Shown one piece after another: positions 1,748 through 19,391 of a stretch of 21,252 nucleotides of DNA (position 1 is its first letter; each line of letters starts with the position of its first letter). The stretch comes from a virus, in IMG/VR virus record IMGVR_UViG_3300047553_000960, positions 1 to 21,252 of that record. One strand, written 5' to 3'. The notes beneath the pieces were generated by a model that made no database searches, was not told the DNA's origin, and worked only from the letters and a program-made list of their open reading frames with translations. Both the position numbers and the translations under genes were made by a program.

Positions 1748-4700
1748 CTACAATGATGGCATAAATTTGATATTAGCATCTCCTATATCAAGTTGTACGG
1801 CAAAATCGTATACCATAGATGGATTACTGCCAACTGAAGTAAGTAGAATTCCGAACCTGATTTTACTCGATGCTTGACTGAGTTCAAAAGTTTTATTAGG
1901 AGTTATGATAGTAAAATTATCAAAGTTATAAGTTTCATTACTATCATCTGAAGTTGTATATCCGTATACAATACTTCCATTATTTTTTAACTCATTAGAA
2001 GTCAACAATCCTCTTTTAATCAAAGGAGCATCTGTATCGTAGTTTTCTGTATCAAACATTCTTGTGAAGAAATAACTTCCAGTTGATGATGTATACGAAA
2101 TAGCTACAGAGAGTAATTCAGGAGTGATGTTTTTAGATGCAGTAATGAGTTCAACTTTATATTGAAGCCATTTACCAGAATACGAAGAAAGATCAATGTT
2201 TAATGTTTGTGCACTAGTCGATGCATAAATATCATTAACAGTAGATAATGTTTCTGCTTCTCCATAAGATGCAGCTAAACACTCAGATCTTGTATTTCCA
2301 GATTTGATATAAATCTTAACTTGAGTACCATTGTCTAAATTAGTATCAGGAGTTACTGGATATTTATTTAATATCAAAGCAGCTAATTGTGTCCATGCAA
2401 TAAGCGTAGGAACATAGATTGGCTGCGGTTCATAAATACCAATCTCTCTTACCTTTCTGTCTGGAGCATATACTGGATACAATCTTGAAGGTGGAACATA
2501 TATTCCTTTTCTTGAAAGTGAGTTATCAGAATTTTTCTGTATTTGATATATAACTCCATTATTATTTGTTGTTGATAAGGTTGTTGTTGATGGAGCGGTA
2601 TTTGTTGTGCTTGATGCTGTAGTATTAGCGTTCACTTGAGATTGAGTTTGGCTATTAGTATTGCTATTTTGCTTATCACCAGTCACAGTATTGATAGTGG
2701 TGTTAGTATTTGAAACAATATTTGTAACTTCATTTTGTACGAAAGATGAAGGATTATTAGATACATTTGAAGTTTGTAATAATTTGTCTTTGATTATTGG
2801 ATAAGCTGTATTATTAGCAGGTAGAACGACACCTTGAATGTTTCCAGCTTGATCCTTAAATCTTACATAAACATTTCTTGTGTTATCTTCATAAGGAGTT
2901 GTAGAAAACTCAAAGATTGATCCATCTTGACTTGCACCATAGAATGTATTCCCTATAGCAGTCATCGCTTTGATTTTGTTTGGACCGTAGAATTGTGTAC
3001 TTGGAATTAACTCATATGGCTGATTACTATTTTTCTTCCAGTAAACAGCTAATGTGCTTCCTGTTCCTACATTGTTGTATGTATGAAGCTTGAATTTTAC
3101 AAAGTCTCCCTCTAACAAAGTAAATGTATTTGTAGAGTAATTTGTTTCTAAAGAAGTAGTAGATTTAAAGTTGCTTATTTGTAAAGTATCATCTAAGAAA
3201 AGATTGTACCCTACACTTGAATCAACTCTAAATGTACAAGTTCCATCTTGTTCTGCTTTGATAGCTCCTTCAATCATTAGTGAAGGATTTGTAAAGCTTG
3301 CTGGATATGTAAATGCTGTTCCTGCTCCGTAGTTGATAGCAGTAGTTTGCGCAGTTCCAGATATGTAATTATAACTTTCAATATCTGCTACATCTGTCCA
3401 AGTTATACCAGTTGAAGCAGTATATGATCTCCAAGTATTTATAAGTTGATTTGTTTCATTAGGATGAGATACAACTTTCTTAAATCCATTTATAGATTTG
3501 AAATATCCAAAAACCCCATTGTCTGCAACAATATATACATAATTCGAGTTAGGATCATCATATATTCCAAATACTCTGTCAGCGTATGTATCATAAATTT
3601 TTGACCATGATTTAGCTACATTTCCGTCAAATGTAAGTTCCCAAATCTGTCCACCTCTAAATGCAGCTAATACTGAACTTCTAGTAAATGAATTAGCTAA
3701 AGCATCTACACTATCGAAGTTTGTTGAAACAGTTTGGTTCCATTCTGAATTGTAGTATTTATATATTGAAGATGCAGCATATCCATATCCACCACCTAGT
3801 CCAACATAAAGAGTAAAGTCTTTAGCGGACATACTGGTGACTTTATCGTAAGATGAAAAGTCTTTGATATTCAATAATGACTGTCCATCATATTTGTAAA
3901 TACTTGATGAGCTGGATGTACCTTTAGAAGTACCAATGTACAGATCATTACCAATAGATGTCAAGCATGTAATAGGTTTAATGGTTTTGTAATTGGATGC
4001 ACTCAATGGTTGTTTCGCATTTACAACACTCCAAAACTCACCATTGAATGAAACAAAGAGAAGACCTGAGTTACTACCAGCATAAGCTTTGCCATTGAAT
4101 ACATGGATATCTGTAATTTGGTATCTTTCATCAACTAAGGCTTCATTCAATATTGGGTAAACAGTATCATTTTTACTAACATACATTTTGTTATTAGCAG
4201 CAATGAGTATTTTGTCTCCAAATGTTTCTATTGCGTTGATTTCAGATGTAGAATTGCCTGTTTGTTTGCTCCATAGATATTTAGCATTAGTAAGATCTAT
4301 ATCTGTGTAGGTAGTCTCTCCAGATGTAAAGTCTATAAATCCTCTGGTGTCTGCATTTTCAAAATCTTTTGCATCTCTAAAATCTTCAAATCTTGATATT
4401 TGAGCAGAGACTACATCAGTTAATTCATCATAAGCAGAGATTGTAAGATCAGCTCTTTGGTCTATTGTGAAATAATCACCTTTGTAAACTATTCTAGCAG
4501 CATACAAACTAGTTGGAGTATCAAATGCAAAGTTTAAGAAATCAAGAGTTTCTACATCAGCAATATTTTCAAAGATATCCACCCATTCTGATGTTCTTGT
4601 TTCTTTTATTTGAACAATGTAAGTCTTTGTATTACGTGCTGTCGCTCCAATAATTAAATTAGTAACTGTTGGATATATATCGTTGTCAGGATTAGTTGGA

Positions 4701-7144
4701 TCTTCATAAACTTTATCAAATTTTTTGAGTAAGTAATTGAATTGTTTATTACCTAAAACTTCGTATTTTGATAAGTCAGTACTTCCTCCGTATACTGAAA
4801 CTTGTTTTATTGGAGTTTCATAAATATCTAGAAGAAGATCTGTTGATTGTAATTCAGCAGAAGTTGTCAAGAAACTTGTTAATTTATTGTAAGCTGTTGT
4901 GTTTGCTAATCTGACCCAAGTGAGATCAGTATCATCATAATAAGCTAACTCATTGCCTTCTAGAGAATGAGTAGCTAAATAAATATAAACATTCCCAGTA
5001 ACTGCTATTGGAAGATTATCCAATAAAACTTCTACCCAATAATAAGTATCTGCAGTTAAAGACAGACCACTATTGGAAAAACTATAAAGATCATACGCAC
5101 TAGTCAAACTGTCAACTTGTATAGAACCAAAAGATCCTAGTAAAGTAAGTGGATTATCTCCAGTTGTATCTGTTGAGTAGAGATTGAGACTAATCTTATC
5201 TCCAAGATTTAAGAAAGATCCTATTCTTTTTAATTTTAGATTGATCGTGGTGATATTTTGATCAAATGTAGAATAAATTTTAAATGCTGTTTTTAAAGTT
5301 GATAAGGAATAATCTACAATAGTATTTTCTTCAGTAACAGTTAAGCTTGAATATCCTAAACCTGAGAAATAATGAACCTTGATACCAGGGTCAACATCAT
5401 CAGATTTTTTATTGTAAATAGCAATACCTCTTGGAGGAGTAGTATCATAAATAACACTTGCATTAGGATAGAATTCAGATTTCACTAAAACATCAGTGTA
5501 ATCATCAGTAATTTCAAAACCATACCCAGCTGTTGTTCCTAATGCTGCATTCCAATCATAGGTGTCAAAAAATCCAAATGCATCATAACTAGCTCTGTTT
5601 GTGATGGTTACAGGCTCAAAATTATTTACTGTTCCGTAACCAGATGCTCCGTATACTTGCAGATCACTATTGAATAATGAAACTTGAACTGTGCTTCCTG
5701 AATAAATTCTATTATATAAAGTCAGCTTTACATTATGATCTGAACCTGTAGTACCTGTTGCTGATGATTTGATAGGGGAAGATTGCCCATCAATAAATAC
5801 TCTAAATCCAGTTATTCCAGATCCAGGAATTGATGGATAAGATTTGTTTGTTCCAAAATCTAAAAATATGTTGCTTCCAGTAGTGTCAACATAGCTAGTT
5901 GTTGAGGATGGAGTAGCGTTATATTGTCCATTAGCTTGTAATGGTAAGAAACCCTTGTAAAGATTTTGTATTTTGAAATTGGAAAAATTATCTAATTGAT
6001 TTAGGTTTGAACTTTGGTCAGTTATGTAGTCATTAACTGGTTTTGAGTAAGTTAAGAATAATTCACTCGTTGGACCTAATGCACTTTTATTGATAGATAG
6101 TGTGTATTGAGTTACTCCAATACTTCCAAATGTAGTATTTGAATCTACTACATAATCTACTGTTTTATATATGTTTTGATCTGCAACATATACGCTGAAA
6201 CCTGTAGCTGAAGTACCTGGTAGAGTAGGTTCAGACATGGTCACATAAATATCAAGGAATACAAATGCTGCAGTTGTGTTTGTTCTAGCACTAACTACAT
6301 ATGGTTTTATTGTTTCAGATATTGAGTTTGTAACTGCTGATCCTGAGAAAGAAACTGCATATGTTAGCCCAGTTCCAGTGCTATCTCTGATCTTGAATTG
6401 ATTAGAAGATGGTTGAGTATAAGAGATAGTAACAGGGTTAGTTCCATCACTAGGAGCAAGAGAGCTTTCTAAATTTAAAACTACAACCTTTGCATTTGTA
6501 GGACTAGATGGATCTAATACATATCCAGAAAGTATGTTTACACTTTGATTACTTTGGGTAATAGCAAAACCAGAAATACCAGTAGTAGGTAAGATTGGAG
6601 GAGTTGCTTCAGTATAGTAAACATAAACTTTGCTACCATCTGTGCTTGTGGTTGCATAGTTGAAAAGAGGGGGATTGGCTTCTTTTGTTAGGTTAGTAAT
6701 TCCAACACCAGTAAAACTTGCTACAAAAGATTTAGTGACATCGTTGTCAGATAACTTTGGTACAGTTGATCCAAATCCTGTAGCATCATAAGAAACTTTT
6801 ACTGTTTGAGCAGTTAGAGCTATACCTGATCCGTCATAAGAACTATCTACAATTTTGTTCGCATCTGAAAGAATTAACTGTAATGTTTTAGGTTGTGTTG
6901 GATCAATAAACGTTGACGAAGGAGTAATAGTTGAAGCTATTGCTCCAAAGAATTTATGTACAGAAAATCTTAACTCTAATCCAGAAGATGGCTCAAGCCC
7001 AGCACTATCTATGTCTTCAAAATTTAAGTAAATTCTTTTACCATCAAATGAAGTATATGATAGATTACTTAAGCTTGTTGAAATTCCTGGGCTTGCTCCA
7101 CCAAAAACTATAAATGTGTTTCTAGGATCTTGATTATTTTCCAT
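1748..7144 (-). CDS. Giant tail adhesin-like protein: SwmB-like repeats, seven-bladed propeller with inserted PA14, C-terminal jelly roll
   Basis: 1798 aa, ATG at 7144, TAG stop. Only 2 bp follow the previous stop and no good Shine-Dalgarno is visible, so translation probably depends on coupling. Residues 1-517 form four SwmB-like beta repeats ending GITN, AVTN, KIQN and TITN. Residues 610-765 look like a jelly roll (LTADTYYWVEV). Residues 765-905 are a discoidin-like beta domain, with low confidence. Residues 960-1220 contain six propeller blades, 1255-1388 a PA14 domain and 1390-1415 a seventh blade. Residues 1455-1530 are a low-complexity Asn/Thr/Ser/Gln linker, followed by a Pro/Tyr-rich stretch. 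Residues 1600-1690 are a jelly roll with GKWLQYKVEL, and the rest is a beta-rich C-terminus. PA14 and jelly-roll domains commonly bind glycans, so a host-surface adhesion role is inferred. No catalytic residues are recognised. Confidence 0.78.
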   Translation of the reverse strand: MENNQDPRNTFIVFGGASPGISTSLSNLSYTSFDGKRIYLNFEDIDSAGLEPSSGLELRFSVHKFFGAIASTITPSSTFIDPTQPKTLQLILSDANKIVDSSYDGSGIALTAQTVKVSYDATGFGSTVPKLSDNDVTKSFVASFTGVGITNLTKEANPPLFNYATTSTDGSKVYVYYTEATPPILPTTGISGFAITQSNQSVNILSGYVLDPSSPTNAKVVVLNLESSLAPSDGTNPVTISYTQPSSNQFKIRDSTGTGLTYAVSFSGSAVTNSISETIKPYVVSARTNTTAAFVFLDIYVTMSEPTLPGTSATGFSVYVADQNIYKTVDYVVDSNTTFGSIGVTQYTLSINKSALGPTSELFLTYSKPVNDYITDQSSNLNQLDNFSNFKIQNLYKGFLPLQANGQYNATPSSTTSYVDTTGSNIFLDFGTNKSYPSIPGSGITGFRVFIDGQSSPIKSSATGTTGSDHNVKLTLYNRIYSGSTVQVSLFNSDLQVYGASGYGTVNNFEPVTITNRASYDAFGFFDTYDWNAALGTTAGYGFEITDDYTDVLVKSEFYPNASVIYDTTPPRGIAIYNKKSDDVDPGIKVHYFSGLGYSSLTVTEENTIVDYSLSTLKTAFKIYSTFDQNITTINLKLKRIGSFLNLGDKISLNLYSTDTTGDNPLTLLGSFGSIQVDSLTSAYDLYSFSNSGLSLTADTYYWVEVLLDNLPIAVTGNVYIYLATHSLEGNELAYYDDTDLTWVRLANTTAYNKLTSFLTTSAELQSTDLLLDIYETPIKQVSVYGGSTDLSKYEVLGNKQFNYLLKKFDKVYEDPTNPDNDIYPTVTNLIIGATARNTKTYIVQIKETRTSEWVDIFENIADVETLDFLNFAFDTPTSLYAARIVYKGDYFTIDQRADLTISAYDELTDVVSAQISRFEDFRDAKDFENADTRGFIDFTSGETTYTDIDLTNAKYLWSKQTGNSTSEINAIETFGDKILIAANNKMYVSKNDTVYPILNEALVDERYQITDIHVFNGKAYAGSNSGLLFVSFNGEFWSVVNAKQPLSASNYKTIKPITCLTSIGNDLYIGTSKGTSSSSSIYKYDGQSLLNIKDFSSYDKVTSMSAKDFTLYVGLGGGYGYAASSIYKYYNSEWNQTVSTNFDSVDALANSFTRSSVLAAFRGGQIWELTFDGNVAKSWSKIYDTYADRVFGIYDDPNSNYVYIVADNGVFGYFKSINGFKKVVSHPNETNQLINTWRSYTASTGITWTDVADIESYNYISGTAQTTAINYGAGTAFTYPASFTNPSLMIEGAIKAEQDGTCTFRVDSSVGYNLFLDDTLQISNFKSTTSLETNYSTNTFTLLEGDFVKFKLHTYNNVGTGSTLAVYWKKNSNQPYELIPSTQFYGPNKIKAMTAIGNTFYGASQDGSIFEFSTTPYEDNTRNVYVRFKDQAGNIQGVVLPANNTAYPIIKDKLLQTSNVSNNPSSFVQNEVTNIVSNTNTTINTVTGDKQNSNTNSQTQSQVNANTTASSTTNTAPSTTTLSTTNNNGVIYQIQKNSDNSLSRKGIYVPPSRLYPVYAPDRKVREIGIYEPQPIYVPTLIAWTQLAALILNKYPVTPDTNLDNGTQVKIYIKSGNTRSECLAASYGEAETLSTVNDIYASTSAQTLNIDLSSYSGKWLQYKVELITASKNITPELLSVAISYTSSTGSYFFTRMFDTENYDTDAPLIKRGLLTSNELKNNGSIVYGYTTSDDSNETYNFDNFTIITPNKTFELSQASSKIRFGILLTSVGSNPSMVYDFAVQLDIGDANIKFMPSL
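2555..2782 (-). repeat. Low-complexity Asn/Thr/Ser/Gln linker
   Basis: Residues 1455-1530 of the 1798-aa protein are almost entirely N, T, S, Q, V and A, for example NTNSQTQSQVNANTT. It separates the propeller/PA14 part from the C-terminal jelly roll and is probably a flexible tether. The DNA has many GTT/ATT-type runs, so slippage or length variation is possible. Confidence 0.75.
2981..3382 (-). other. PA14-like domain coding segment
   Basis: Residues 1255-1388 of the 1798-aa protein. The visible pattern is IEGAIKAEQDGTCTFRVDSS, then GYNLFLDD, a loop, FTLLEGDFVKFKLHTYNN, LAVYWKK and ELIPSTQFYG. This matches the strand order of PA14 domains, which often bind carbohydrate. It sits between propeller blades 6 and 7. 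Confidence 0.75.
5594..7144 (-). repeat. Four tandem SwmB-like (flagellar-associated/Ig-like) protein repeats
   Basis: The units are residues 1-152, 153-274, 275-395 and 396-517 of the 1798-aa protein. Repeated landmarks are LPTTGISGFAI, LPGTSATGFSVYV and IPGSGITGFRVFI near the start of units 2-4, then VTISYTQP- or LTYSKP-like strands, and a unit-ending TN or QN. The first unit is longer and more divergent. The layout fits the SwmB/SWM repeat family; copy limits are approximate. Confidence 0.65.
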
Positions 7145-7146
7145 GA

Positions 7147-10122
7147 TTAAACTGTCTTGATACTTCCATAATGTCCACTAAGGAACAATCTGCCTTTGTA
7201 GCTTATTGAGGTGAGAGGTCTTATTATTCCGAGTATGTCGTAGTTTCCAGAGTTATCAAATATCTTTTTTCTCTCAAACGGAACATCTTCTAAAAACCAA
7301 GTTTCAGAATTTGACTCATAGTAGAAAATTTTGCCTTGACGATCATCTGGGTTTTCTGACAATTTGCTACTTATAAAACCATCAGTTGCACAATATAATG
7401 TTCCATCATGGTATGTAAATAACCTAACCCCACCTGTTGATGGTAATTTTACAGATTGATTAAAATCTATAGTTTTTACATTGACTGGAGATAATGCTTC
7501 TCCAAAAATAAATGACAATTTTGAATAACCAAATAATGAATCACCAGAATCATTTGACAATTTGCCAAATCTAATATAAGGTTTGTCATAGTCATCAACT
7601 GCAAGATTTGGTTCAATATATTTTGGATTATAAGTATCTAAAGTAATAAAATTTTTCATCTCAATAAATGGACTATATTGAGATCCCAAATACACCTTGA
7701 TATCTTTTCCTTCCACATTTAGTCTTACTTTTGATAATTTATTATTTATATCAAATATATTTTCGTTAGAAAGTATTTGTATGTATTCAATAAATATTGC
7801 ATCAGGTCTTTGGAAATTTTCTGGAAGATTAACGAACTCAATGCAAATCTTGTCTATATTTCCATTCCATACAGGTTTGATGATATATTCTTGATATCCA
7901 TCTGTTGAATGAATTTCAGTGTCAGAATATTTACTAAAACTTCCATCAGAAAATGCCCAATAAGCTCTAATGTTTGCATTTGATAAGTTTTGAGCTTTTG
8001 GAGATATTTTTGCTTTTATTTTGATTGCTGAATCTAAATCAACATCTAAACCTAATCCTGTTATTTCTATTGATGGATTGCCTGTAAGTGTTGGAACAAT
8101 TTTCAATACATATTTATTTACTACGTTATTAAAAACATCAAAATTGCTTTCAGTTTCAGCAGTTAAAGAAGATATAAAATTTCTTGCTGTCCAATCTTCA
8201 GTGCTAGAAGAAACAACTTCTGAAGATACTGAATAAAATTGCCAATCTTTTACTAAACCTGTTGTTATCAAGGATTTAGAAACAACATTTGTTCCACTAG
8301 ATAATCTAACTGTATCAGTACTAAATTCTAATTGAAAATTACCATACAGATCAGATATCTCTAAACCTTGATAACCATTAAATGAATATTGAAGTACCTG
8401 TTCAGGAGTGTAAAGCTCTGGAGCATCTCTCATGTCAGTATTTGAAATTGCAGAACTTTTGCTTAGATTTATAAGTTCTGCTTCAACTGTGTAAGATGGT
8501 TTGTAGAAAATATAATTTCCAGTTGACAAAACATCGTCATAATTTAGTAACCATCTAGATGCAATATTTATGTACCCGTTTTGAACATAAAAACCTAGAA
8601 TACTGTTACCACTGATAATGTAGTTGGAAATTGACTCAATAGATGGATCTGAATTTGCATCATTGTATTTATAAATTCCATTATAAATACCATTTGTTCC
8701 AGCTATACCTTGATCTTTCAGTAATATCAAGTCATTAGTTTTCAAAGTATATCCATCTATAGAAGTAAAATTGTTCCAAGATGATATTGCTGTGTATGAA
8801 GCACACTGAACATCTATAAAAGCTTGATCAGGAAGATTTGCACCAACTAATTGTTCCCAATCAGATCCTTCAGCAAATTCAAAAAATCTTGAACCATAGG
8901 CTGTAGCACCTACTCCGTCTACAGTGTTTCCTTTGATTACTAGAAAATCCGTAGCTCTTCCAGGAACATTATCATTATGGAAATGTGCCATTCCAATATT
9001 AGTGTCATTACGCGAGAGTGTATTGCTATCAAATGAATAATATTGAGCAGGAGCTGGATCTGCTAAAAATACTTCATCAAAAACATAGCTTGACCATTTT
9101 TCATCAGTTTCTGGATTTGAAATTGGTACTTCGCTATAAACCCATATTTCTGGTTTTCTATCAACAGCAGCAAAAACTTGATTTTTACCAACTGCTAATG
9201 CTTTTATTCCAAAATCTAGTGCTTCAAAATCTCCAATATTATTAGATATCAAAGTTGAAGTAGAAAGGGTTTCTGTTTCTACTTCAGTTTCAACAATTTC
9301 TTCTGTAACTAAGTTAGTAGGTTGTGATAACACTATTTGTTTAGATCTGGAGTATTTGTGAATTTTTTTGTTTCTAGATCCGATGAAAAGTTTGTTATAT
9401 GCAGAAGCTAAAGATAAAATTCCTCCAGATGCTGCAGCTAATTCACCTTGAGCATACACCTGTTCCCAAGCAGATCCATCATGAGCAGATGACAATTTAG
9501 CTCTGAATAGTCTTGGTAGTTGATCACTAGCAACATATAAATAAGGTTCAGTTTCATGTTCAAATTGATGTGAAATCATTGCTGAAGCTGAAATATCTAA
9601 AGAGTTATCTTGGAGAATAAAAACAGGACCCTTTACATAATCTCCATTGTAAAACCATATTTTTCCGGAGATACCAGACATATATATTCCATTATCAGTA
9701 GCAACAAGACTAGTTATTGCTCTCTCTTTGTGGAACTTTAAATCGATAACTTTATTGAATGACACTAAGTTTGAGGTGTGGAGACTAGCAAAATATCTTT
9801 CTATTTTTGCTGATACTGTTGATACGTCAATTGCTGTGTCAAAAATTATTAAGTTTTTATAATCATCAATTCCATAACTAATATTTGTAGAAACATTTAA
9901 AGTTATCTCATCAGCAGAAGTTATTTCATAAACTCTGTGCAAATCGTTTGAATTAGTGCCAATCAACTTATAAGCAGTACGTTCAGGATATTCACTGTCT
10001 AAGCTATCAACAAGTGAAACATTAGTAATTTCTTGTTTAGAAACTCCAGCAAAGTAAATGATTTTTTCACTATCGTTTGGACCTTTCCATAAACAACTAG
10101 ATGTAAAAATTGTAGGTATCAT
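7147..10122 (-). CDS. Propeller tail protein with nested LVKNQ repeat and lectin-like domains
   Basis: 991 aa from ATG 10122. The open frame extends to a GTG at 10152. I prefer 10122 because its ATG overlaps the upstream TAA as TAATG, like two other junctions here, and AGAGG lies 11 nt before it. Residues 135-426 contain five propeller blades of the form ITSLVATDNGIYMSG. A long insertion follows: an LVKNQ-type repeat at 435-542 (LLKDQ, NGIYNGIYKY), then a concanavalin/LamG-like domain in two parts (575-655 and 788-875) around a CBM-like beta sandwich (665-785, YWAFSDGSFSKYSDTEI). Two more blades at 899-946 and 967-991 complete seven. The protein stops inside the last blade, as expected if the N-terminal region closes the ring. 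A structural or adhesion role is inferred. The short C-terminus leaves no room for a fibre tip after the propeller. Confidence 0.75.
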   Translation of the reverse strand: MIPTIFTSSCLWKGPNDSEKIIYFAGVSKQEITNVSLVDSLDSEYPERTAYKLIGTNSNDLHRVYEITSADEITLNVSTNISYGIDDYKNLIIFDTAIDVSTVSAKIERYFASLHTSNLVSFNKVIDLKFHKERAITSLVATDNGIYMSGISGKIWFYNGDYVKGPVFILQDNSLDISASAMISHQFEHETEPYLYVASDQLPRLFRAKLSSAHDGSAWEQVYAQGELAAASGGILSLASAYNKLFIGSRNKKIHKYSRSKQIVLSQPTNLVTEEIVETEVETETLSTSTLISNNIGDFEALDFGIKALAVGKNQVFAAVDRKPEIWVYSEVPISNPETDEKWSSYVFDEVFLADPAPAQYYSFDSNTLSRNDTNIGMAHFHNDNVPGRATDFLVIKGNTVDGVGATAYGSRFFEFAEGSDWEQLVGANLPDQAFIDVQCASYTAISSWNNFTSIDGYTLKTNDLILLKDQGIAGTNGIYNGIYKYNDANSDPSIESISNYIISGNSILGFYVQNGYINIASRWLLNYDDVLSTGNYIFYKPSYTVEAELINLSKSSAISNTDMRDAPELYTPEQVLQYSFNGYQGLEISDLYGNFQLEFSTDTVRLSSGTNVVSKSLITTGLVKDWQFYSVSSEVVSSSTEDWTARNFISSLTAETESNFDVFNNVVNKYVLKIVPTLTGNPSIEITGLGLDVDLDSAIKIKAKISPKAQNLSNANIRAYWAFSDGSFSKYSDTEIHSTDGYQEYIIKPVWNGNIDKICIEFVNLPENFQRPDAIFIEYIQILSNENIFDINNKLSKVRLNVEGKDIKVYLGSQYSPFIEMKNFITLDTYNPKYIEPNLAVDDYDKPYIRFGKLSNDSGDSLFGYSKLSFIFGEALSPVNVKTIDFNQSVKLPSTGGVRLFTYHDGTLYCATDGFISSKLSENPDDRQGKIFYYESNSETWFLEDVPFERKKIFDNSGNYDILGIIRPLTSISYKGRLFLSGHYGSIKTV
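8497..8820 (-). repeat. Phage tail LVKNQ/NGIY repeat, copy D (divergent)
   Basis: Residues 435-542 of the 991-aa protein. The landmarks are SIDGYTLKTNDLILLKDQ, NGIY, FYVQNGYIN and SRWLL. The order of the landmarks matches copies A-C, but the sequence is the most diverged. Confidence 0.6.
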
Positions 10123-13100
10123 TAAACTTTTGGCCTCTTTGTAGAATTCCACTTAATTTCTGGTTGAGTTGTATTATTCCCAAAATCTCTGAACTTGATT
10201 TCTATCTTCTTGACACCATCTGTTTCACCACTAAAATCTACTTTTGCGTAAGGTGAAAAAGGTGTCCACTCAGACCAATCTCCTGCACCTGTATCAAGTA
10301 ACTTTCTTGTTTGAAAATCTTTGATACCTGTGACTAGATCATATGCATTTGTCTTTAACCATGCATTCTTGAGATTTGTAAAATCTACTATTTGATTAGT
10401 TCTTGGATCGTAAAAATCAACACCGCCAATAGGAGGTTGTGTGTCTACTAAAGCTTGGGAACTTGCAACAAAAGTCAATGGATTTGATTCAGAAATATTT
10501 CCCATGTAATCCATCACTTGAACCCAGATTTTTCTTGAACCTGAAAAACCAATGTTCTGTTTAGCAAATGCATCAAAAGTTGGACCAGAATTATAGTAGT
10601 TCAAATGTCCATGTAAATATATAAAATACTCATTTGAATTATTGACTATATATTTATCCCAAGGCAACCAAGGTGTATATTGAATGTAGGAGTTGTCAAT
10701 TTCTTTACCAACTCTAAAAGATAAAAGACCACTTTCATTATCTTCAGCTGCGATACTAATCTGGAGCATTCTTAAGTTTGACTCTTCAGCAACTGTAATG
10801 TATGGAACATCATTATTATGTGATGGAGAGTTTATATCTACAACAGATAAGCTACTCAAATTAGTTGAAAAGCTTGATAACTCACCATGGGATACTGCTC
10901 TCACTCTAAAATGTTGAGCATTTTTATTTACGTTATTGATAGACTTTTCTTCATATCTTGTATGAAGTTTATGCCATAAATTATTTGCTATCTTGTAACC
11001 TGAGAATTTTTCATTGTAAATATAATCTCTGTTACTGAAATTCTTTCCATTAGCTTCACCTAAAGAAGCATTGAAAGGAAGATTGATTGCTACCCAAATA
11101 CTTTGTGCTTGAGTCACTGAACTGTTCCAATCACTTTCAGAAAGAGCAACTTGTACTAAATGACTATTTGAAGCAATACTCATACCAGCAACATATGGAT
11201 TATAAGAAACTCCAATCCAGTCAGTAAGTGGAGTTGAGCTGTCAGGTAGAGTGCCAATATTAGCATAAAATCTTACTTTTATTTGATCCATAGGGAAAGC
11301 AGTATCATAGTCTTCCCAATTGATCTTAAATTCAAATAAGCCTGGTTTTGTAGTTGAATAGAATGGGGATATTTCTCCAACTGTAATATTTTTAAAATAT
11401 GTAGTACTAACAAATCTATCTAAAATTTCACCATTGACTGGAATTCTAGTTTTGTACCAATAAGTATTAGCATTAATTGTTCCCTGTAGCACTTTGAAAG
11501 GTACAGAATAAGCTGTAGTTACTAATGACCAACCTGTTGAAGATTTAAGATAAACACCATTTTCTATCTCATCTACCTGATCTTTGACTAAGATATAACT
11601 GCCTACTGACAAACTAGAAATTGCAATATCATCAATTGTCAAGCTTTCTAGATTTGATACTGATATAGATGTCCCTGTGGTAGCAACTTCTGCATTAGTT
11701 GGAGAAGATTTTGTATTTGAAAAAGTCAAACCTGTAGTATTTAGTGTTATTGGATCTGGAGTAGTCAAATACCATTTAGTTTCAGAGTTTACTGTTCCAT
11801 TTTCAACTCTTACTAAAGTATTGCTTACAACTTCCTCAGTACTATCAAATGATGTAGATCTTCTTAGTTGCCATGTTGTTGAAGCACTTCCAGCTCTTGA
11901 AACATAGTACACACCATTTCTCGTAGTTGTTGATTCATTTTTGACCAGAATGACATCATTTACTATAGGTGTATATCCATCAATGTAAAGTGTTGTAGCT
12001 GTCCCAGAAGTGAATGTATTTGAAGAAAATGATGGTGAATTTGGTAATGTAGCTGTTGTTCCAACTGCTGCGTTAAATGTTTTGACTGGAATTGTCAATA
12101 CATTTCCATAATTAAATCCAACAAAATCAGTTTGCCCACTTAATAATTTTTGCCCAAGATAATGAGAAGAATTAGTTAAACCTTCATCAGATAACAATAT
12201 AGATCGAATAGAACTATCATTATCATACTTTTCTTTGTAAATATTAGGAATGCCAGAATACTTGACTTTGAATATTTGATTATTTGAACTGTTGTATGAA
12301 CTTTCTTTCCAACCTAAAGCAGCAAAGTAACCTAATCCTGAAGAGTTGCTTGTAAGAGACATCAACATATTCACAGTTCCAAGCAAATTGATGTTAGAAC
12401 TAGTTGTCTCTTTGATCAATAACCATGTGCCTACGGGATTTTTAGTTTTATATCTACCATTGAAACCATTAGGCACTTGATCAGTTATTTCTAAAATAAA
12501 CTTTTTCTTATCACTACTTGGAGCATAAGATCTAATTGCATGTCTAGTAAGTTTATTATCAGCAGTTCTTTGGATAACAGAGATTTCATTTTTCTCCCCA
12601 CTAAACTTTACTACTATTGTTTCTGCATTTAGCGGAGCATCTGTGTAGGAAGAATTATCATCACATCTAGTGCCAAATGGTCTATCCCAATTGACAGTAA
12701 GATTTTTTTCAGTATGAGATCTGTATGATGAAACAGGACTGAATGCAATGTAAAAATCATCTGCACCATGTATCATTTCAACTTCAAAAATACTTCTGTT
12801 TGAAAATGATGGTTTATAAAATTGCATTTCATAAAAAGCATTTACTTCGTATGAGTTTGAACTGTCAATTTTAGACAATGAAACTGAATCTGCTGAAGTT
12901 GTCTTGGTAAAAGTCAACCCACTTGGTGCATCAGTAAGATATAAGAAATCTTCATTCTCATATTCACTCCATGAGTGTGGAATGTCAATAGATGGAAAAC
13001 TAATTACATCTATGTCATCAACTGAACAATCTCCAACATCAACAGACAATTTTGATTTGCCTTGAGCCATGAATAATTCTTGAAGAACTACACCACCATC

Positions 13101-14477
13101 AAAAGAAGTACCAACAGATGAGGAAATTTGACAACCAAAAGCTGATCCAACTGAAGAAGATCCAAATGATGTTAATAAAGCATTTGACAATAAGTAACTT
13201 TTTGTTGATGAGGAAGATTGATCAAGATATGGAGTAAAATAAGTTTCCACCATACATAGACTTGTAGTACCCATTGAAGAGCAATACATTTCCATCAATC
13301 CTCCAGACTTAATAAGTGGTAAGACACTATTTGGAAGATTTGTGATCTGCTTATATGTACTTATGGTTCCATTATTAACAGTATATAGATAAGAAATTGG
13401 TGCTCCGTCATTTGGAATATCTAATCTACAAACGATTTCATTAGAGTTAGCTGCTGTTTCTGGAGCTGCAAATAATTTTAAATAAACTTGAGTTGTTACA
13501 GCTACACCGCTAGTTGTATATGAGAAACCTGCTTGAGTATAGTAATCAGTTTTGTTTGATGTTGGAACAAGTTTTGTATTGGAGTAGAAGAAAGCTCCTT
13601 TACCAAAACTTTGGCTTGTTAAACCAATATTTGCACCTAATGAAAGAGATGCAGAAGAATAAGCAGATCCGTTGTATCTGTAACTTTGTAGTGAAGTTGA
13701 GGCAATAGAAGCTGATGGTAGTAAAGATCTTTTTACTAAATTTTTAGCTGTGTAAGCATCATAAGTTCCATTAGTATTAGAGACTTCATACAAACTAGCA
13801 AGATATCTTCCAATACCATTATGTGCTTGTTGTGCAGATGATTGATTACCACTTGTAAATGAAAGTAAAGTATTCTTTCCAACCCAACCAGTTTTTCCAC
13901 TAGGGATTTCTGGTTGTGAAGGATTTACGGGAATTTCACCTTCCCAAAGAATTTGATCAAAGATACCATAACCTAATGGGTACTCAATGTCACTTCCATC
14001 AGGTCCTTCAATAATCGCTTTGAGATAAACAGTTGATAGTCCACCAGAAGCAGACAATGGCCAATTATATACCTTGAATAATCCAGTTCCACCAGCTGTA
14101 GGAGCTGCCATTGTTCCTTGGGTTTGTGTTCTATCGAAAAAATATAATGGATTGAAAGTATATTCGTAGTCGAATGTTGTATCGTATGTATAGCTTGTAG
14201 ATGGGAAATTTGTTATCGCAATTGTAGAGGCTTGATCAAACTGCTGATCGTTTGACAAATACAGTGCCTTGATCCTAGTAAAAGTTGACAAACTTCTGGT
14301 AGCCTTATCTCTTACTTCAAAAGAAAAAGTTAAAGTATTTTTGTTATTGTCAAGACTAGGGTCTTTTGAGTATTTATTACTAGTATAAGTATCACCTGAG
14401 TTTATAAATTCAGATTGTAGATATCCACTAGATAAATTGCTTGGTAAAATGATTGTTACGTCGAAAGGCACTTTCAA
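10122..14477 (-). CDS. Large tail fibre-like protein with two LVKNQ repeats and C-terminal Ig-like domains
   Basis: 1451 aa if started at TTG 14477. No ATG is available: an in-frame TAA lies at 14498-14496, and only TTG 14477 or GTG 14471 follow closely. Residues 1-180 are a beta-rich head. Residues 240-475 and 535-745 each resemble a lectin-like jelly roll. Residues 800-922 and 927-1022 are two LVKNQ-type tail repeats (LVKNE...NGVY and LVKDQ...NGVY). Residues 1040-1135 are beta-rich. Residues 1165-1215 look FN3-like (HFRVRAVSHGE). Two Ig-like domains end the protein: 1215-1342 (VQVMDYMGNISES) and 1343-1451 (DTQPPIGGVDF, then IEIKFRDFGNN). The TAA overlaps the next gene's ATG. No enzyme motif was found. 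It is probably a baseplate-attached fibre or adhesin, by inference from module content and neighbours. Confidence 0.75.
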   Translation of the reverse strand: MKVPFDVTIILPSNLSSGYLQSEFINSGDTYTSNKYSKDPSLDNNKNTLTFSFEVRDKATRSLSTFTRIKALYLSNDQQFDQASTIAITNFPSTSYTYDTTFDYEYTFNPLYFFDRTQTQGTMAAPTAGGTGLFKVYNWPLSASGGLSTVYLKAIIEGPDGSDIEYPLGYGIFDQILWEGEIPVNPSQPEIPSGKTGWVGKNTLLSFTSGNQSSAQQAHNGIGRYLASLYEVSNTNGTYDAYTAKNLVKRSLLPSASIASTSLQSYRYNGSAYSSASLSLGANIGLTSQSFGKGAFFYSNTKLVPTSNKTDYYTQAGFSYTTSGVAVTTQVYLKLFAAPETAANSNEIVCRLDIPNDGAPISYLYTVNNGTISTYKQITNLPNSVLPLIKSGGLMEMYCSSMGTTSLCMVETYFTPYLDQSSSSTKSYLLSNALLTSFGSSSVGSAFGCQISSSVGTSFDGGVVLQELFMAQGKSKLSVDVGDCSVDDIDVISFPSIDIPHSWSEYENEDFLYLTDAPSGLTFTKTTSADSVSLSKIDSSNSYEVNAFYEMQFYKPSFSNRSIFEVEMIHGADDFYIAFSPVSSYRSHTEKNLTVNWDRPFGTRCDDNSSYTDAPLNAETIVVKFSGEKNEISVIQRTADNKLTRHAIRSYAPSSDKKKFILEITDQVPNGFNGRYKTKNPVGTWLLIKETTSSNINLLGTVNMLMSLTSNSSGLGYFAALGWKESSYNSSNNQIFKVKYSGIPNIYKEKYDNDSSIRSILLSDEGLTNSSHYLGQKLLSGQTDFVGFNYGNVLTIPVKTFNAAVGTTATLPNSPSFSSNTFTSGTATTLYIDGYTPIVNDVILVKNESTTTRNGVYYVSRAGSASTTWQLRRSTSFDSTEEVVSNTLVRVENGTVNSETKWYLTTPDPITLNTTGLTFSNTKSSPTNAEVATTGTSISVSNLESLTIDDIAISSLSVGSYILVKDQVDEIENGVYLKSSTGWSLVTTAYSVPFKVLQGTINANTYWYKTRIPVNGEILDRFVSTTYFKNITVGEISPFYSTTKPGLFEFKINWEDYDTAFPMDQIKVRFYANIGTLPDSSTPLTDWIGVSYNPYVAGMSIASNSHLVQVALSESDWNSSVTQAQSIWVAINLPFNASLGEANGKNFSNRDYIYNEKFSGYKIANNLWHKLHTRYEEKSINNVNKNAQHFRVRAVSHGELSSFSTNLSSLSVVDINSPSHNNDVPYITVAEESNLRMLQISIAAEDNESGLLSFRVGKEIDNSYIQYTPWLPWDKYIVNNSNEYFIYLHGHLNYYNSGPTFDAFAKQNIGFSGSRKIWVQVMDYMGNISESNPLTFVASSQALVDTQPPIGGVDFYDPRTNQIVDFTNLKNAWLKTNAYDLVTGIKDFQTRKLLDTGAGDWSEWTPFSPYAKVDFSGETDGVKKIEIKFRDFGNNTTQPEIKWNSTKRPKV
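10134..10138 (-). promoter_or_regulatory. AGAGG ribosome binding site deciding the start at 10122
   Basis: AGAGG lies in the last codons of the 1451-aa gene, 11 nt before ATG 10122. The alternative GTG at 10152 has no comparable motif. This supports shortening the longest frame by ten codons. Confidence 0.5.
11412..11699 (-). repeat. Phage tail LVKNQ/NGIY repeat, copy C
   Basis: Residues 927-1022 of the 1451-aa protein. The landmarks are LTIDDIAISSLSVGSYILVK followed by DQ, NGVYLKSSTGWSLV, FKVLQGTINANTYWYKT. It lies in tandem with copy B but is clearly diverged from it, so the duplication is not recent. Confidence 0.65.
11712..12080 (-). repeat. Phage tail LVKNQ/NGIY repeat, copy B
   Basis: Residues 800-922 of the 1451-aa protein. 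The landmarks are LYIDGYTPIVNDVILVKNE, NGVYYVS, TWQLRRSTSFD, VRVENGTVN and KWYLTTPDPITLNTTGLTF, in the same order as in copy A. It is followed directly by copy C. Confidence 0.75.
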
Positions 14478-15498: not shown

Positions 15499-18400
15499 TT
15501 ATTCCGATATCAATATGTTGTCATTGGAGATAATCTTCATTCCTTTTGGATGAAATATTTCATTATTATCTCCCCAGGTAGATAAAATATTTCCTGAAGT
15601 ATTTATCAAGTGCAACCTTGAATTTTGTCCATTATTAATAACATCATCAGTTAGCACATAGAAGTTTGAATAGTCAGTTGCAGGTCCAGGAAGAGCTTTG
15701 ACTACATCGTTATTGAAAGTTAGTTTTGTCTCAATAAACCCATTAGATATATTATAAACTAATAATTTTCCTGTATCTGTTGTATCAAATGCCGGACAAC
15801 CTAATAATACATTTCCGCTATTCATCAAGTAAGCAGAACCTAATTTGTTATCATAAAACTTAGCTACATCAGATGTTATTTGCCATTTTCTAGTTAAAGT
15901 ATCATCATCAGAGAAACAAATAACTGCATCAGAATGAGATTGAGCTATCACTAGGAGACTATCAGCTTCATGGTATTGAACGCTGATTGGATTATAAATA
16001 TTTTCAAAATAAATAGGTCCGACTAATAAATCCAATAATACTGTGTCAGATTGATTATTTGGTCCATACATTACTGTTGTTGAAATAGCACTGTCTGAAT
16101 TAAAATCAGTAACATTATTTACTGTTGAATTTGTGGTGCTTAATCCAGTAGTTATTGTTTGAGTTCCAGTTACAGAAGTGCTTATTCCAGCATAGAACTG
16201 TTCAGTTCTATTAGTTGTTGAAACTGTGCTTTCTGGGATTACTGCTGAAAGCGGATCAGTCCCGTTGATGCTATTTCCAGAGTTAACAAAACAATTTTTA
16301 TCTAATCTTACTTGTCTGTTAGTTGCATTCTGTATAGCTGAAACTAAAGCTAATCCTTCAACAGTATCTTTTATTTTCAATTCGTAAGTAGCAGATAATG
16401 AAAATATTGGATTTGAATAAGATCCATCAATTCTTACATCGTCAGCTCTAACTGTAGTACCATCAAAAATAATATATATTTTAGTCAAGTCTACAAAAGA
16501 AATGTTTTGCGAAAAGGCTAAAAATATTTTTCTTGTTGTTGGATTGAATGTTGCAGATAAAGCAACAAAATCTCTAGATTGTAATTTTAATCTAATGTTG
16601 CCTTGAATAACTTTTGTGAAGTTACCATCAATGTCAGTTACAATCACTCTGTCATTTTTAGTATCACAGATTACATTACCACCAGTAGATAAAGCTTGAT
16701 AATCAGATGGTGAATTGAAACCATAGCTTGTTGTTTTAAGAAAGACTTGAGTAGGGGTCAGGTAATTTCTAAGTGTAGAATTGTCAATACCATCTTCAAT
16801 AGTGCTTTCAGAAGTATTATTTGCAGCAGAAATAAGAGAATTATTTCTTAAGTAAATCCAATTGCCTACAGAGGAAGTATCAAAGATCTTAAGATAGTTT
16901 GTATCATCAGGATTAGTTGTTCCATAGCCTACGTTCTTGTTATAGTACGCATCACTTATCCATCCAAATTTTTGAAGAGAAACATCTGTGGTGTTTCTAT
17001 CGTATGTTCTTGTTGTAGCTGAACCTGATGCTGAATAATTTATTCTCAGACTATTTACTATAGGTGCTAAATCCTGATTTTGTGTTGAATACAGATTGAA
17101 TAACACGTCAAGATATCTTCCTTGATTTGAATTTACATCAGGAGTAGCTTGAATAACATCTGATGTGCTAACTGTTTTTAGATTATAGAAAACATCAGAA
17201 TTGGTATTTGATCTTGTTTGGATAGTGTATTTAGATCCAGCAGGTTGGTCAACATCAAATTCAACTAGGTTGTATTGAGTAGTAGTGTCTCCAGAATCAA
17301 ATCTAAGTAAAAAACTTCCACTCTTATATTTGTATTCATCATTCCATACAAATACTGATGTGTTAACTTCAGATGGGGCTCTTCTTGCTAAGATTAGATC
17401 ATCATAATCTCCAGAAGAATTAACATCGCTTTCGGACGGGGTAAGCAATTCAAACTTTACTTGCTTTTCTGCATTCCATCCATTATTAGTTGCAAAATAA
17501 AATCCATATCCATGAACTGACTTCTTGAGACTACTATCACCAAAATCAGAAAGAAGAATATTTTTATAAGCACTTGTTCCAGCTATCATTCCTGTAACAG
17601 TATCGTCAAATATCTTTACATTATCTACAGGGCTAATATAAATGATAGAACTACCAGCTCCAGAAGTGTTAGGAGCAAATTCTATCTTCTGGTCATATAG
17701 TAATCCAGGATCAGTGTTTCCAGAACCAACAACAAGGAACATATAAATATTTCCTAACGCTGCTGTTGTTTCTCCCAATCCAGAAGAAAAACCAATTCCT
17801 ATCCTAGATGCACTTTCAAGAGATAGTGGTTGATCAAACAAAGTATAAGTGTACATTTTAGTGTCAACTTTGACTTTATTTGATGAAAAGGATGTAGTGA
17901 ATACTAAACCAGAATTCCAGTTATTTGCACTATCAAAAATGCTTGAAACTGGACCGTTGAAACTTCTATAGTTCAATGGAGTATCTAAGGTGAAACTTCC
18001 TGTAGTTGCTGATCCAGAAATAGCAATATTATTAAAATAATTTATCGAACTTCCTAGTGAAGATGCAGTTGTTTTAGCACTTAGGAAATCATTCAATACT
18101 ACAAAACTTTTATCACCAACAAATGTAGAACTTATGACACTCCCACTAATTCCTGACCCTGAATTTCTTGGTGATGTGTCTCTAATATCTGCAAGGGTGT
18201 ATGCAGATGGAACTGAAGTTTTTTGTGCAAAATTAGCAGTATTTCCAGTTGAAGCATTGGAAAAATTATTAGGAAAAATACCAGGAACATAGACTAATGT
18301 ATTGATCTGACTTGAATCAATATATGTCATCCCTGTTCCACCTGATTTTTTCAAAGCAATAAGCATCTGCAATCTGTTAGCTATAGATAAATCAGAAAGT

Positions 18401-19164
18401 GTGTAAGTTGTATCTTCTGAAACGATATCTAATAAAAGAGTTTCAAGTTCAGTGTGAGTAAGATTGCCTTTATCTTGTAAAGTGTCGTGAGATATTTCTG
18501 GAAGTCTTGAGCTGTCTAATACTCCAGTTGTAATTTTTGAAGCATCTACATAATCAATATTGTCAGATGATAATAAATTTTTTACTTCTTTTGACAAATC
18601 TACAGGGGTGGGATTGTTGCTTCCTCCAACATGCTTGTGATTAGTTAACAAAGAAGACAATGAAGCAAATAAACTTATATCCTGTCTTCCACTATCATCA
18701 ACTGTAATAAGTCCGTTAATTACATCAACATCAATTTGACCTAAAAAGATATAGTTTACTGTATCATTAAGCTGTGTTAGTGATGCTACGAAATCTACAT
18801 CACCAGTAACTGAAGTATCTGAGTTTTCATATGCATATACATACAGTCTAGTAGAAGAAACATTTGCTGGTATTGTAGGAAGTGTTACATCTTTACTTGA
18901 TGCTGTTGTTGCATATTTATAAGAAACATGTCCTTTACCAGAAGTAATCTGTATTTTTGTTGTTTTAAATTCGTTAGCAAATGTCTTTATTCTCCAAGAT
19001 GGTGTATTAGGATCATCTTCCAAAACACCATTCTTGAAAATTTGGTAAAGATTATATATCTGATTTTCAATAGCTTTAAATCTAAGCTCGTCTAAATCGA
19101 TATTTTCTGAAAGATCTTGGTTTGGTTCAATGTATCCAAAACCATATATTGGAGTATTTCCCAT
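15499..19164 (-). CDS. Large tail protein with HKH module, GRYL jelly roll and C-terminal NHL-type propeller
   Basis: 1221 aa; ATG 19164 overlaps the preceding TAA (TAATG), with AAGAGAAG upstream. Residues 1-240 are a module also seen in the partial gene at the left edge: NLYQIFKNGVL, LGQIDVD, HKHVGGSNNPTPVDL, then DASKITTGVLDSSRLPEISH. Residues 250-590 are beta-rich and unassigned. Residues 590-710 resemble a jelly roll (GRYLDVLFNLYS, APIVNSLRINY) also found near the end of the 1798-aa protein. Residues 815-852 are an NHL-type blade (DTKNDRVIVTDIDGN). An Ig-like insertion follows at about 865-1045 (KIFLAFSQNISFVD), and further blades run from 1056 to the end (INTSGNILSTWG, FHPKGMKI). The protein stops in mid-blade at ILISE. 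A virion structural or adhesion role near the baseplate is inferred. Confidence 0.75.
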   Translation of the reverse strand: MGNTPIYGFGYIEPNQDLSENIDLDELRFKAIENQIYNLYQIFKNGVLEDDPNTPSWRIKTFANEFKTTKIQITSGKGHVSYKYATTASSKDVTLPTIPANVSSTRLYVYAYENSDTSVTGDVDFVASLTQLNDTVNYIFLGQIDVDVINGLITVDDSGRQDISLFASLSSLLTNHKHVGGSNNPTPVDLSKEVKNLLSSDNIDYVDASKITTGVLDSSRLPEISHDTLQDKGNLTHTELETLLLDIVSEDTTYTLSDLSIANRLQMLIALKKSGGTGMTYIDSSQINTLVYVPGIFPNNFSNASTGNTANFAQKTSVPSAYTLADIRDTSPRNSGSGISGSVISSTFVGDKSFVVLNDFLSAKTTASSLGSSINYFNNIAISGSATTGSFTLDTPLNYRSFNGPVSSIFDSANNWNSGLVFTTSFSSNKVKVDTKMYTYTLFDQPLSLESASRIGIGFSSGLGETTAALGNIYMFLVVGSGNTDPGLLYDQKIEFAPNTSGAGSSIIYISPVDNVKIFDDTVTGMIAGTSAYKNILLSDFGDSSLKKSVHGYGFYFATNNGWNAEKQVKFELLTPSESDVNSSGDYDDLILARRAPSEVNTSVFVWNDEYKYKSGSFLLRFDSGDTTTQYNLVEFDVDQPAGSKYTIQTRSNTNSDVFYNLKTVSTSDVIQATPDVNSNQGRYLDVLFNLYSTQNQDLAPIVNSLRINYSASGSATTRTYDRNTTDVSLQKFGWISDAYYNKNVGYGTTNPDDTNYLKIFDTSSVGNWIYLRNNSLISAANNTSESTIEDGIDNSTLRNYLTPTQVFLKTTSYGFNSPSDYQALSTGGNVICDTKNDRVIVTDIDGNFTKVIQGNIRLKLQSRDFVALSATFNPTTRKIFLAFSQNISFVDLTKIYIIFDGTTVRADDVRIDGSYSNPIFSLSATYELKIKDTVEGLALVSAIQNATNRQVRLDKNCFVNSGNSINGTDPLSAVIPESTVSTTNRTEQFYAGISTSVTGTQTITTGLSTTNSTVNNVTDFNSDSAISTTVMYGPNNQSDTVLLDLLVGPIYFENIYNPISVQYHEADSLLVIAQSHSDAVICFSDDDTLTRKWQITSDVAKFYDNKLGSAYLMNSGNVLLGCPAFDTTDTGKLLVYNISNGFIETKLTFNNDVVKALPGPATDYSNFYVLTDDVINNGQNSRLHLINTSGNILSTWGDNNEIFHPKGMKIISNDNILISE
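18631..18639 (-). other. His-Lys-His motif of shared N-terminal module (copy in 1221-aa gene)
   Basis: Codons 176-178 encode HKH, followed by VGGSNNPTPVDL. The partial gene has HKH then LGETNTPSKIDL at 802-810. In both proteins the motif comes after an LG-x-I beta strand and before an ASKI...G...H segment. Confidence 0.6.
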
Positions 19165-19391
19165 TATTTAACTTCTCTTGGTTTGTATTCTGATGTAACT
19201 TTTTCTACACCCCAATTAGAAAATCCCCATCTTAAAATGCCAGTTTCTTCATCAAAGTTTGTATTCTTCAATCTTCCTATTTGAAGTTGATTACTTACAG
19301 GAGAACGAAATGATACTCCAGCTTCCATGTTATTTTTTTGTTCACGAAGCTTTTCAGTAACAACAGATTGAAGTGAAATAAATTTTGGCAT
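19164..19391 (-). CDS. Small conserved-position hypothetical protein, 75 aa
   Basis: ATG 19391 overlaps the hub gene's TAA, and its own TAA overlaps the next ATG, so it is embedded by one-base TAATG overlaps on both sides. GAAGGA at 19401-19406 gives a good Shine-Dalgarno with 9-nt spacing. The protein is polar and mildly basic, with a possible short helix at 6-20 (SLQSVVTEKLREQKN) and a beta-like second half (GILRWGFSNWGVEKV). There is no membrane segment or known motif. Because it follows a hub-like gene it may be a small baseplate or hub component, but I recognise no family. Confidence 0.8.
   Translation of the reverse strand: MPKFISLQSVVTEKLREQKNNMEAGVSFRSPVSNQLQIGRLKNTNFDEETGILRWGFSNWGVEKVTSEYKPREVK

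Follow-up and report, generated by a model that had tools for sequence, protein, structure and literature searches.

A predicted seven-bladed β-propeller interrupted by a PA14 domain in a putative tail or baseplate protein of large uncultivated phages

The C-terminal domain of gp131 from the large phage phiKZ (PDB: 4GBF), a baseplate-associated protein, is a seven-bladed β-propeller (PMC4901313), and the baseplate protein Gp45 of phage phi11 carries a propeller in which an N-terminal strand closes the ring (PMC4901313). In the RTX adhesins MpIBP and AhLap, PA14 or other ligand-binding domains bud from split domains: a β-sandwich binding module interrupts another domain and stands out from it (PMC12077191). 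A PA14 domain also sits within another globular domain in GH3 β-glucosidases such as BcpE2 and KmBglI (PMC9426481). PA14 domains occur in adhesins of bacteria and yeasts. Characterized PA14 lectins bind sugar via a Ca2+ ion, which a cis Asp-Asp pair keeps in place (PMC8092209; PMC6218569).

The 1798-residue protein described here is encoded in a 21,252-base virus record (the window, i.e. the whole stretch of DNA analysed), in which the long reading frames all lie on the minus strand. Like phiKZ gp131 it comes from a large phage and combines a predicted seven-bladed propeller with a likely place in the baseplate or tail. Unlike gp131, for which no inserted PA14 is mentioned (PMC4901313), its propeller is interrupted by a PA14 domain, and a sequence search with this propeller against PDB propellers gave no match. 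The propeller of phi11 Gp45 differs in being five-bladed and trimeric, with no PA14 described. The RTX adhesins are bacterial and their split domains are mostly Ig-like; the Asp-Asp calcium site is present in MpPA14 (PMC8092209) and absent from the phage PA14. The GH3 β-glucosidases are enzymes whose host domain is an α/β sandwich, not a propeller. The layout is a new combination of known parts: the literature searched, which covered few subscription papers, contains no described case that unites split-domain display, an inserted PA14 and a phage baseplate propeller, and no precedent was found in the literature on PA14 and phage tails. A candidate precedent (PMC7468147) was rejected, as its subject is a secreted cargo protein encoded by a phage rather than a tail protein. 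Split-domain display, known in bacterial RTX adhesins, would by this layout be extended to a phage tail protein, with a propeller as the host domain.

Propeller blades and the predicted ring

A blade HMM trained with the window protein's six blades and six relatives places six four-stranded blades in residues 966-1226 (Table 1). Since these blades were used to train the HMM, their scores of 34-54 bits define their placement and are not a test. The residue numbering and the peptides quoted in the initial annotation are exact, and its blade starts (967, 1008, 1056, 1100, 1144 and 1188) agree closely with those given by the HMM (966, 1007, 1053, 1097, 1141 and 1186).

Table 1. Positions of the propeller blades, the inserted domain and the genes discussed (residues of the 1798-residue protein; nucleotides of the window).
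Feature	Residues	Nucleotides	Strand	Remarks
1798-residue protein gene		1748..7144	(-)	Open reading frame; 34 homologous IMG/VR contigs
N-terminal stretch	941-965	4250..4324	(-)	Proposed outer (closing) strand of blade 7
Blade 1	966-1004	4133..4249	(-)	Blade HMM 34.2 bits; four strands in model 1
Blade 2	1006-1050	3995..4129	(-)	Blade HMM 40.1 bits
Blade 3	1053-1096	3857..3988	(-)	Blade HMM 53.3 bits; pLDDT ~90
Blade 4	1097-1140	3725..3856	(-)	Blade HMM 54.1 bits; pLDDT ~90
Blade 5	1141-1186	3587..3724	(-)	Blade HMM 44.8 bits; pLDDT ~90
Blade 6	1187-1226	3467..3586	(-)	Blade HMM 44.9 bits; strands in both models
Inserted PA14 domain	1228-1388	2981..3463	(-)	PF07691; Pfam match 1266-1375
Position of the PA14-lectin Asp-Asp calcium pair	Ser1310-Val1311	3212..3217	(-)	HMMER alignments
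Seventh blade unit	1389-1416	2897..2980	(-)	Blade HMM 7.4 bits; three inner strands
Hub-like phrog_196 protein		19391-21238		Upstream of the 1798-residue protein gene

The seventh unit follows directly after the PA14 domain, where the initial annotation had put it, and was left out of the training set, which makes it an independent test. Of 2,000 sequences made by shuffling its letters, at least 10 score higher than the unit, and none of 455 other 30-residue stretches of the protein does (best 6.7 bits). The 7.4 bits of the seventh unit are what a real blade may score: the six true blades, each left out of the HMM in turn, reach -0.3 to 20.1 bits. Across 27 aligned sequences the seventh unit scores -0.3 to 10.1 bits.

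Model 1 (residues 780-1445) has a mean pLDDT of 55 and leaves the seventh blade unsettled; its fold matches, with a Z-score of 14.8 at most, end near residue 1245. Model 2 (AlphaFold2, residues 936-1424) was calculated from a shallow alignment (27 sequences in few clusters, including two distant homologues) and is better than the wider model 1, with a mean pLDDT of 70.1 and a pTM of 0.65. Superposition by VIA-align 2 identifies a strong similarity of model 2 to streptogramin B lyase (PDB: 2QC5, Z-score: 26.7, r.m.s.d.: 3.2, 279 of 298 residues); the alignment covers model residues 6-481, corresponding to residues 941-1416 of the protein, and thus takes in both propeller pieces and skips the PA14 domain. 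RACK1 and other WD40 rings align with model 2 at Z-scores of 25-26, and the VIA alignments extend to residues 1414-1424. We take 2QC5, RACK1 and the WD40 ring matches to be seven-bladed, on established knowledge and partly on the entry titles. By Foldseek alone, six- and eight-bladed proteins rank high too. The phiKZ propeller 4GBF is not among the 50 fold matches listed, which is no evidence either way.

Because the alignment runs end to end across both pieces, the ring is most likely one domain split by PA14; in the predicted model the six four-stranded blades and the three-stranded unit align as a single ring, with PA14 lying between blade 6 and unit 7. The strands of the seventh unit in model 2 (1391-1397, 1400-1405 and 1410-1413) have a pLDDT of ~56-74, which together with the modest sequence match of this unit counts against the explanation proposed below. 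Blade 7 probably takes its outer strand from around residues 941-965, as judged from the model: this stretch has a pLDDT of 27-44 and is assigned partly as helix by DSSP, and the model range aligned to seven-bladed chains begins at residue 941-946 in most of the alignments. Residues 966-1226 could instead be a six-bladed propeller, with residues 1389-1416 belonging to the next (Ig-like) domain, a reading that fits the low confidence of the blade 7 strands and of the N-terminal stretch, as well as the failure of the wider model 1 to place either. However, the better model matches seven-bladed rings from end to end, including residues 1391-1416, and the seventh unit scores as a blade does, which makes the six-bladed reading quite improbable. 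We regard the architecture as such, one seven-bladed ring with PA14 between blades 6 and 7, as highly probable. It is the one proposed in the initial annotation, and the blade HMM, Pfam and the predicted model, in which 960-1220 and 1390-1415 form one closed ring, bear it out; the nucleotides assigned to it there (2981-4282) correspond to residues 955-1388 and leave out the seventh unit.

The homologue of one contig (L036:1696-3693) is split into two frames, the break falling within the propeller at about residues 1133-1141.

The inserted PA14 domain

Pfam identifies PF07691 in the whole protein at residues 1266-1375 (E = 6.8e-10, 39.4 bits), within the 1255-1388 that had been annotated as PA14-like; with its flanking strands the domain spans about 1228-1388. 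Scanned alone, the PA14 piece matches PF07691 with E = 9.3e-11 and up to 42.2 bits; these scores lie above the gathering cut-off of 24 bits. All 14 aligned sequences, two of them at 25-27% identity, match PF07691 when this piece is scanned alone. Model 2 has eight strands in this region (block pLDDT ~59-85; core strands ~60-87 in the models), its first ~50 residues are without a confident model, and the fold searches are filled by propellers. The identification as PA14 is therefore mainly one of sequence, with the fold modelled for the core alone. The closest solved PA14 by sequence is the tandem PA14 of RsgI3 (PDB: 6QE7, E = 1.5e-9 with the PA14 alignment), which differs in belonging to a cellular anti-sigma factor and has the Asp-Asp pair in its first PA14 and not in its second; sugar-binding MpPA14 structures follow with weak matches (E about 0.03).

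HMMER alignments place the Asp-Asp pair of RsgI3 (6QE7) and of MpPA14 (6X7J) on Ser1310-Val1311. The Asp-Asp (DcisD) motif occurs in none of the 27 aligned sequences, the other homologues having Ser/Asn/Gly-Val or Asn-Met at the pair. A classical glycan-binding (C-type-lectin-like) adhesin domain, which would bind host sugars through calcium, is suggested by membership of PF07691 and by the weak matches to MpPA14; since the residues that define such a lectin (PMC8092209) are replaced here, this role is very improbable. The description of the insert as a glycan-binding-type domain and receptor-binding candidate is, as judged from the aligned residues, not supported as stated, and among close relatives the domain has no sign of faster or positively selected evolution either. 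Receptor contact of another kind by PA14 is possible. The name 'PA14' should not be read as 'glycan-binding', as this family keeps the PA14 sequence signature and not the calcium site.

Relatives of the protein were obtained from IMG/VR scans, in 34 contigs of uncultivated large phages. Most are 60-88% identical to it over the propeller-PA14 region, and two are 39-40% identical over residues 780-1445. Contigs of the relatives reach 316 and 358 kb, which marks the group as large phages; for the terminase of one such contig the best match listed is a 485-kb uncultured phage, at 26% identity. No relatives were found in INPHARED phages or in GTDB genome contigs. Propeller and PA14 occur together and in the same order in 99 of 99 loci from the 34 contigs, neither being found alone, so the insertion is old and stable in the group; among these loci there is no PA14-less relative that could serve as a before-insertion control. 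Among close relatives purifying selection acts on PA14 as it does on the propeller: where dN/dS could be calculated, most close pairs give ~0.02-0.08, although many of the synonymous distances are almost saturated. Neither diversifying or positive selection nor faster evolution of PA14 is evident among them. Between distant groups (window to L071) PA14 is 27-28% identical versus 44% for blades 1-6.

These results bear on whether PA14 might serve inside the baseplate as a structural spacer or a contact between subunits, binding nothing outside the virion and leaving the receptor to be bound elsewhere in the module. Its presence in every homologue found, its propeller-like dN/dS and the lack of the calcium site in all homologues examined are in keeping with such a role, as is the presence of tail-fibre families in other large genes of the module (gp1, gp4). 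The greater divergence of PA14 between distant groups, however, is more easily reconciled with a surface that faces outwards than with a core contact, and we consider a spacer possible, if less than probable.

Between distant groups the protein varies most in residues 1451-1560 (19% identity), a stretch rich in Ser/Thr/Asn/Gln.

Genomic setting and possible role

The gene belongs to a module that encodes giant structural proteins, and a baseplate-hub-like gene (phrog_196) lies upstream of it, both in the window and in three large contigs; in these contigs the hub-like gene and the homologue are ~16-17 kb apart. Nearby genes, including the large gp1 and gp4, match tail-fibre families. The hub-like gene upstream and these neighbours support the product being a tail or baseplate protein. 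Searches with the protein gave no NCBIfam family match, no significant PHROG match and no enzyme family.

The N-terminal residues 1-516 are separable from 517-1798: in many relatives the two parts are overlapping frames of ~520 and 1284 residues (for example L018:7950-9509 and L018:9493-13344), which are fused in the window.

In the explanation we propose, the protein would be a large component of the tail or of the baseplate periphery in an uncultivated large phage, and its residues 941-1416 are predicted to form one closed seven-bladed β-propeller with the PA14 β-sandwich inserted in the loop joining blades 6 and 7. The N-terminal strand would complete blade 7 and close the ring, and the ring would be a rigid support on which PA14 stands out from the fibre, so that a contact module is displayed in 'split domain' fashion, as in RTX adhesins. 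Lacking a calcium-Asp-Asp sugar site, PA14 might then touch the surface of the host or an adjacent tail protein. The domain identities, their order, the conservation of the insert and the predicted end-to-end ring are the part of this explanation that the results support. As a whole, a split seven-bladed ring in a tail or baseplate-periphery protein displaying a PA14 contact domain without a Ca site, we judge it about evenly poised between right and wrong; by analogy with the systems described above, the likeliest role of PA14 appears to be that of a contact domain which a rigid ring presents in the tail or baseplate. The lack of diversifying selection on PA14 in close relatives counts against this explanation, since contact with a variable receptor might be expected to leave it, as do the low pLDDT of residues 941-965, the shallow alignment behind model 2 and the high Foldseek ranks of six- and eight-bladed proteins. 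The narrower proposal, that PA14 displayed from the split propeller recognizes the host independently of calcium in large uncultivated phages, is doubtful. Host recognition by a PA14 domain on a split propeller is not described in the literature searched. The boundaries given here delimit a contact-module candidate in a phage group for which the isolates searched gave no match to the 1798-residue protein.

Receptor or substrate binding might instead be sought in the propeller, with PA14 capping or shaping its face as in GH3 β-glucosidases. Propellers are the proposed receptor-binding part of phi11 Gp45 and the phiKZ baseplate periphery carries a seven-bladed one (PMC4901313), the active site of BcpE2 is covered by PA14 (PMC9426481), and the top fold match, 2QC5, is a propeller enzyme, though fold alone shows no activity. 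The position of PA14 relative to the ring is, however, unlikely to be reliable in the present model, and the family searches point to no enzyme; we think a binding propeller unlikely. Since PA14 could be displayed and the propeller could bind in one and the same protein, our confidences in these readings partly overlap.

Other proteins of the window have blade-like or repeated sequence. The adjoining 1001-residue protein (7150-10152, minus strand) has blade-like units close to either terminus, separated by a long stretch; one blade-like unit is found in it by the blade HMM of the 1798-residue protein (i-E = 3.6e-4), and profile comparison with that propeller gave nothing (probability 0.3%). 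A 1221-residue protein (15499-19164, minus strand) has C-terminal repeat-like sequence (GKLLVYNISNG ... NDNILISE) that resembles an unfinished propeller and stops just short of the next gene. Three window proteins, all on the minus strand (1-1740, 7150-10152 and 10125-14477), share a tail-fibre-type module (phrog_27782, phrog_11518, phrog_30390 and others), which is strong in two of them and weak in the 1001-residue protein.
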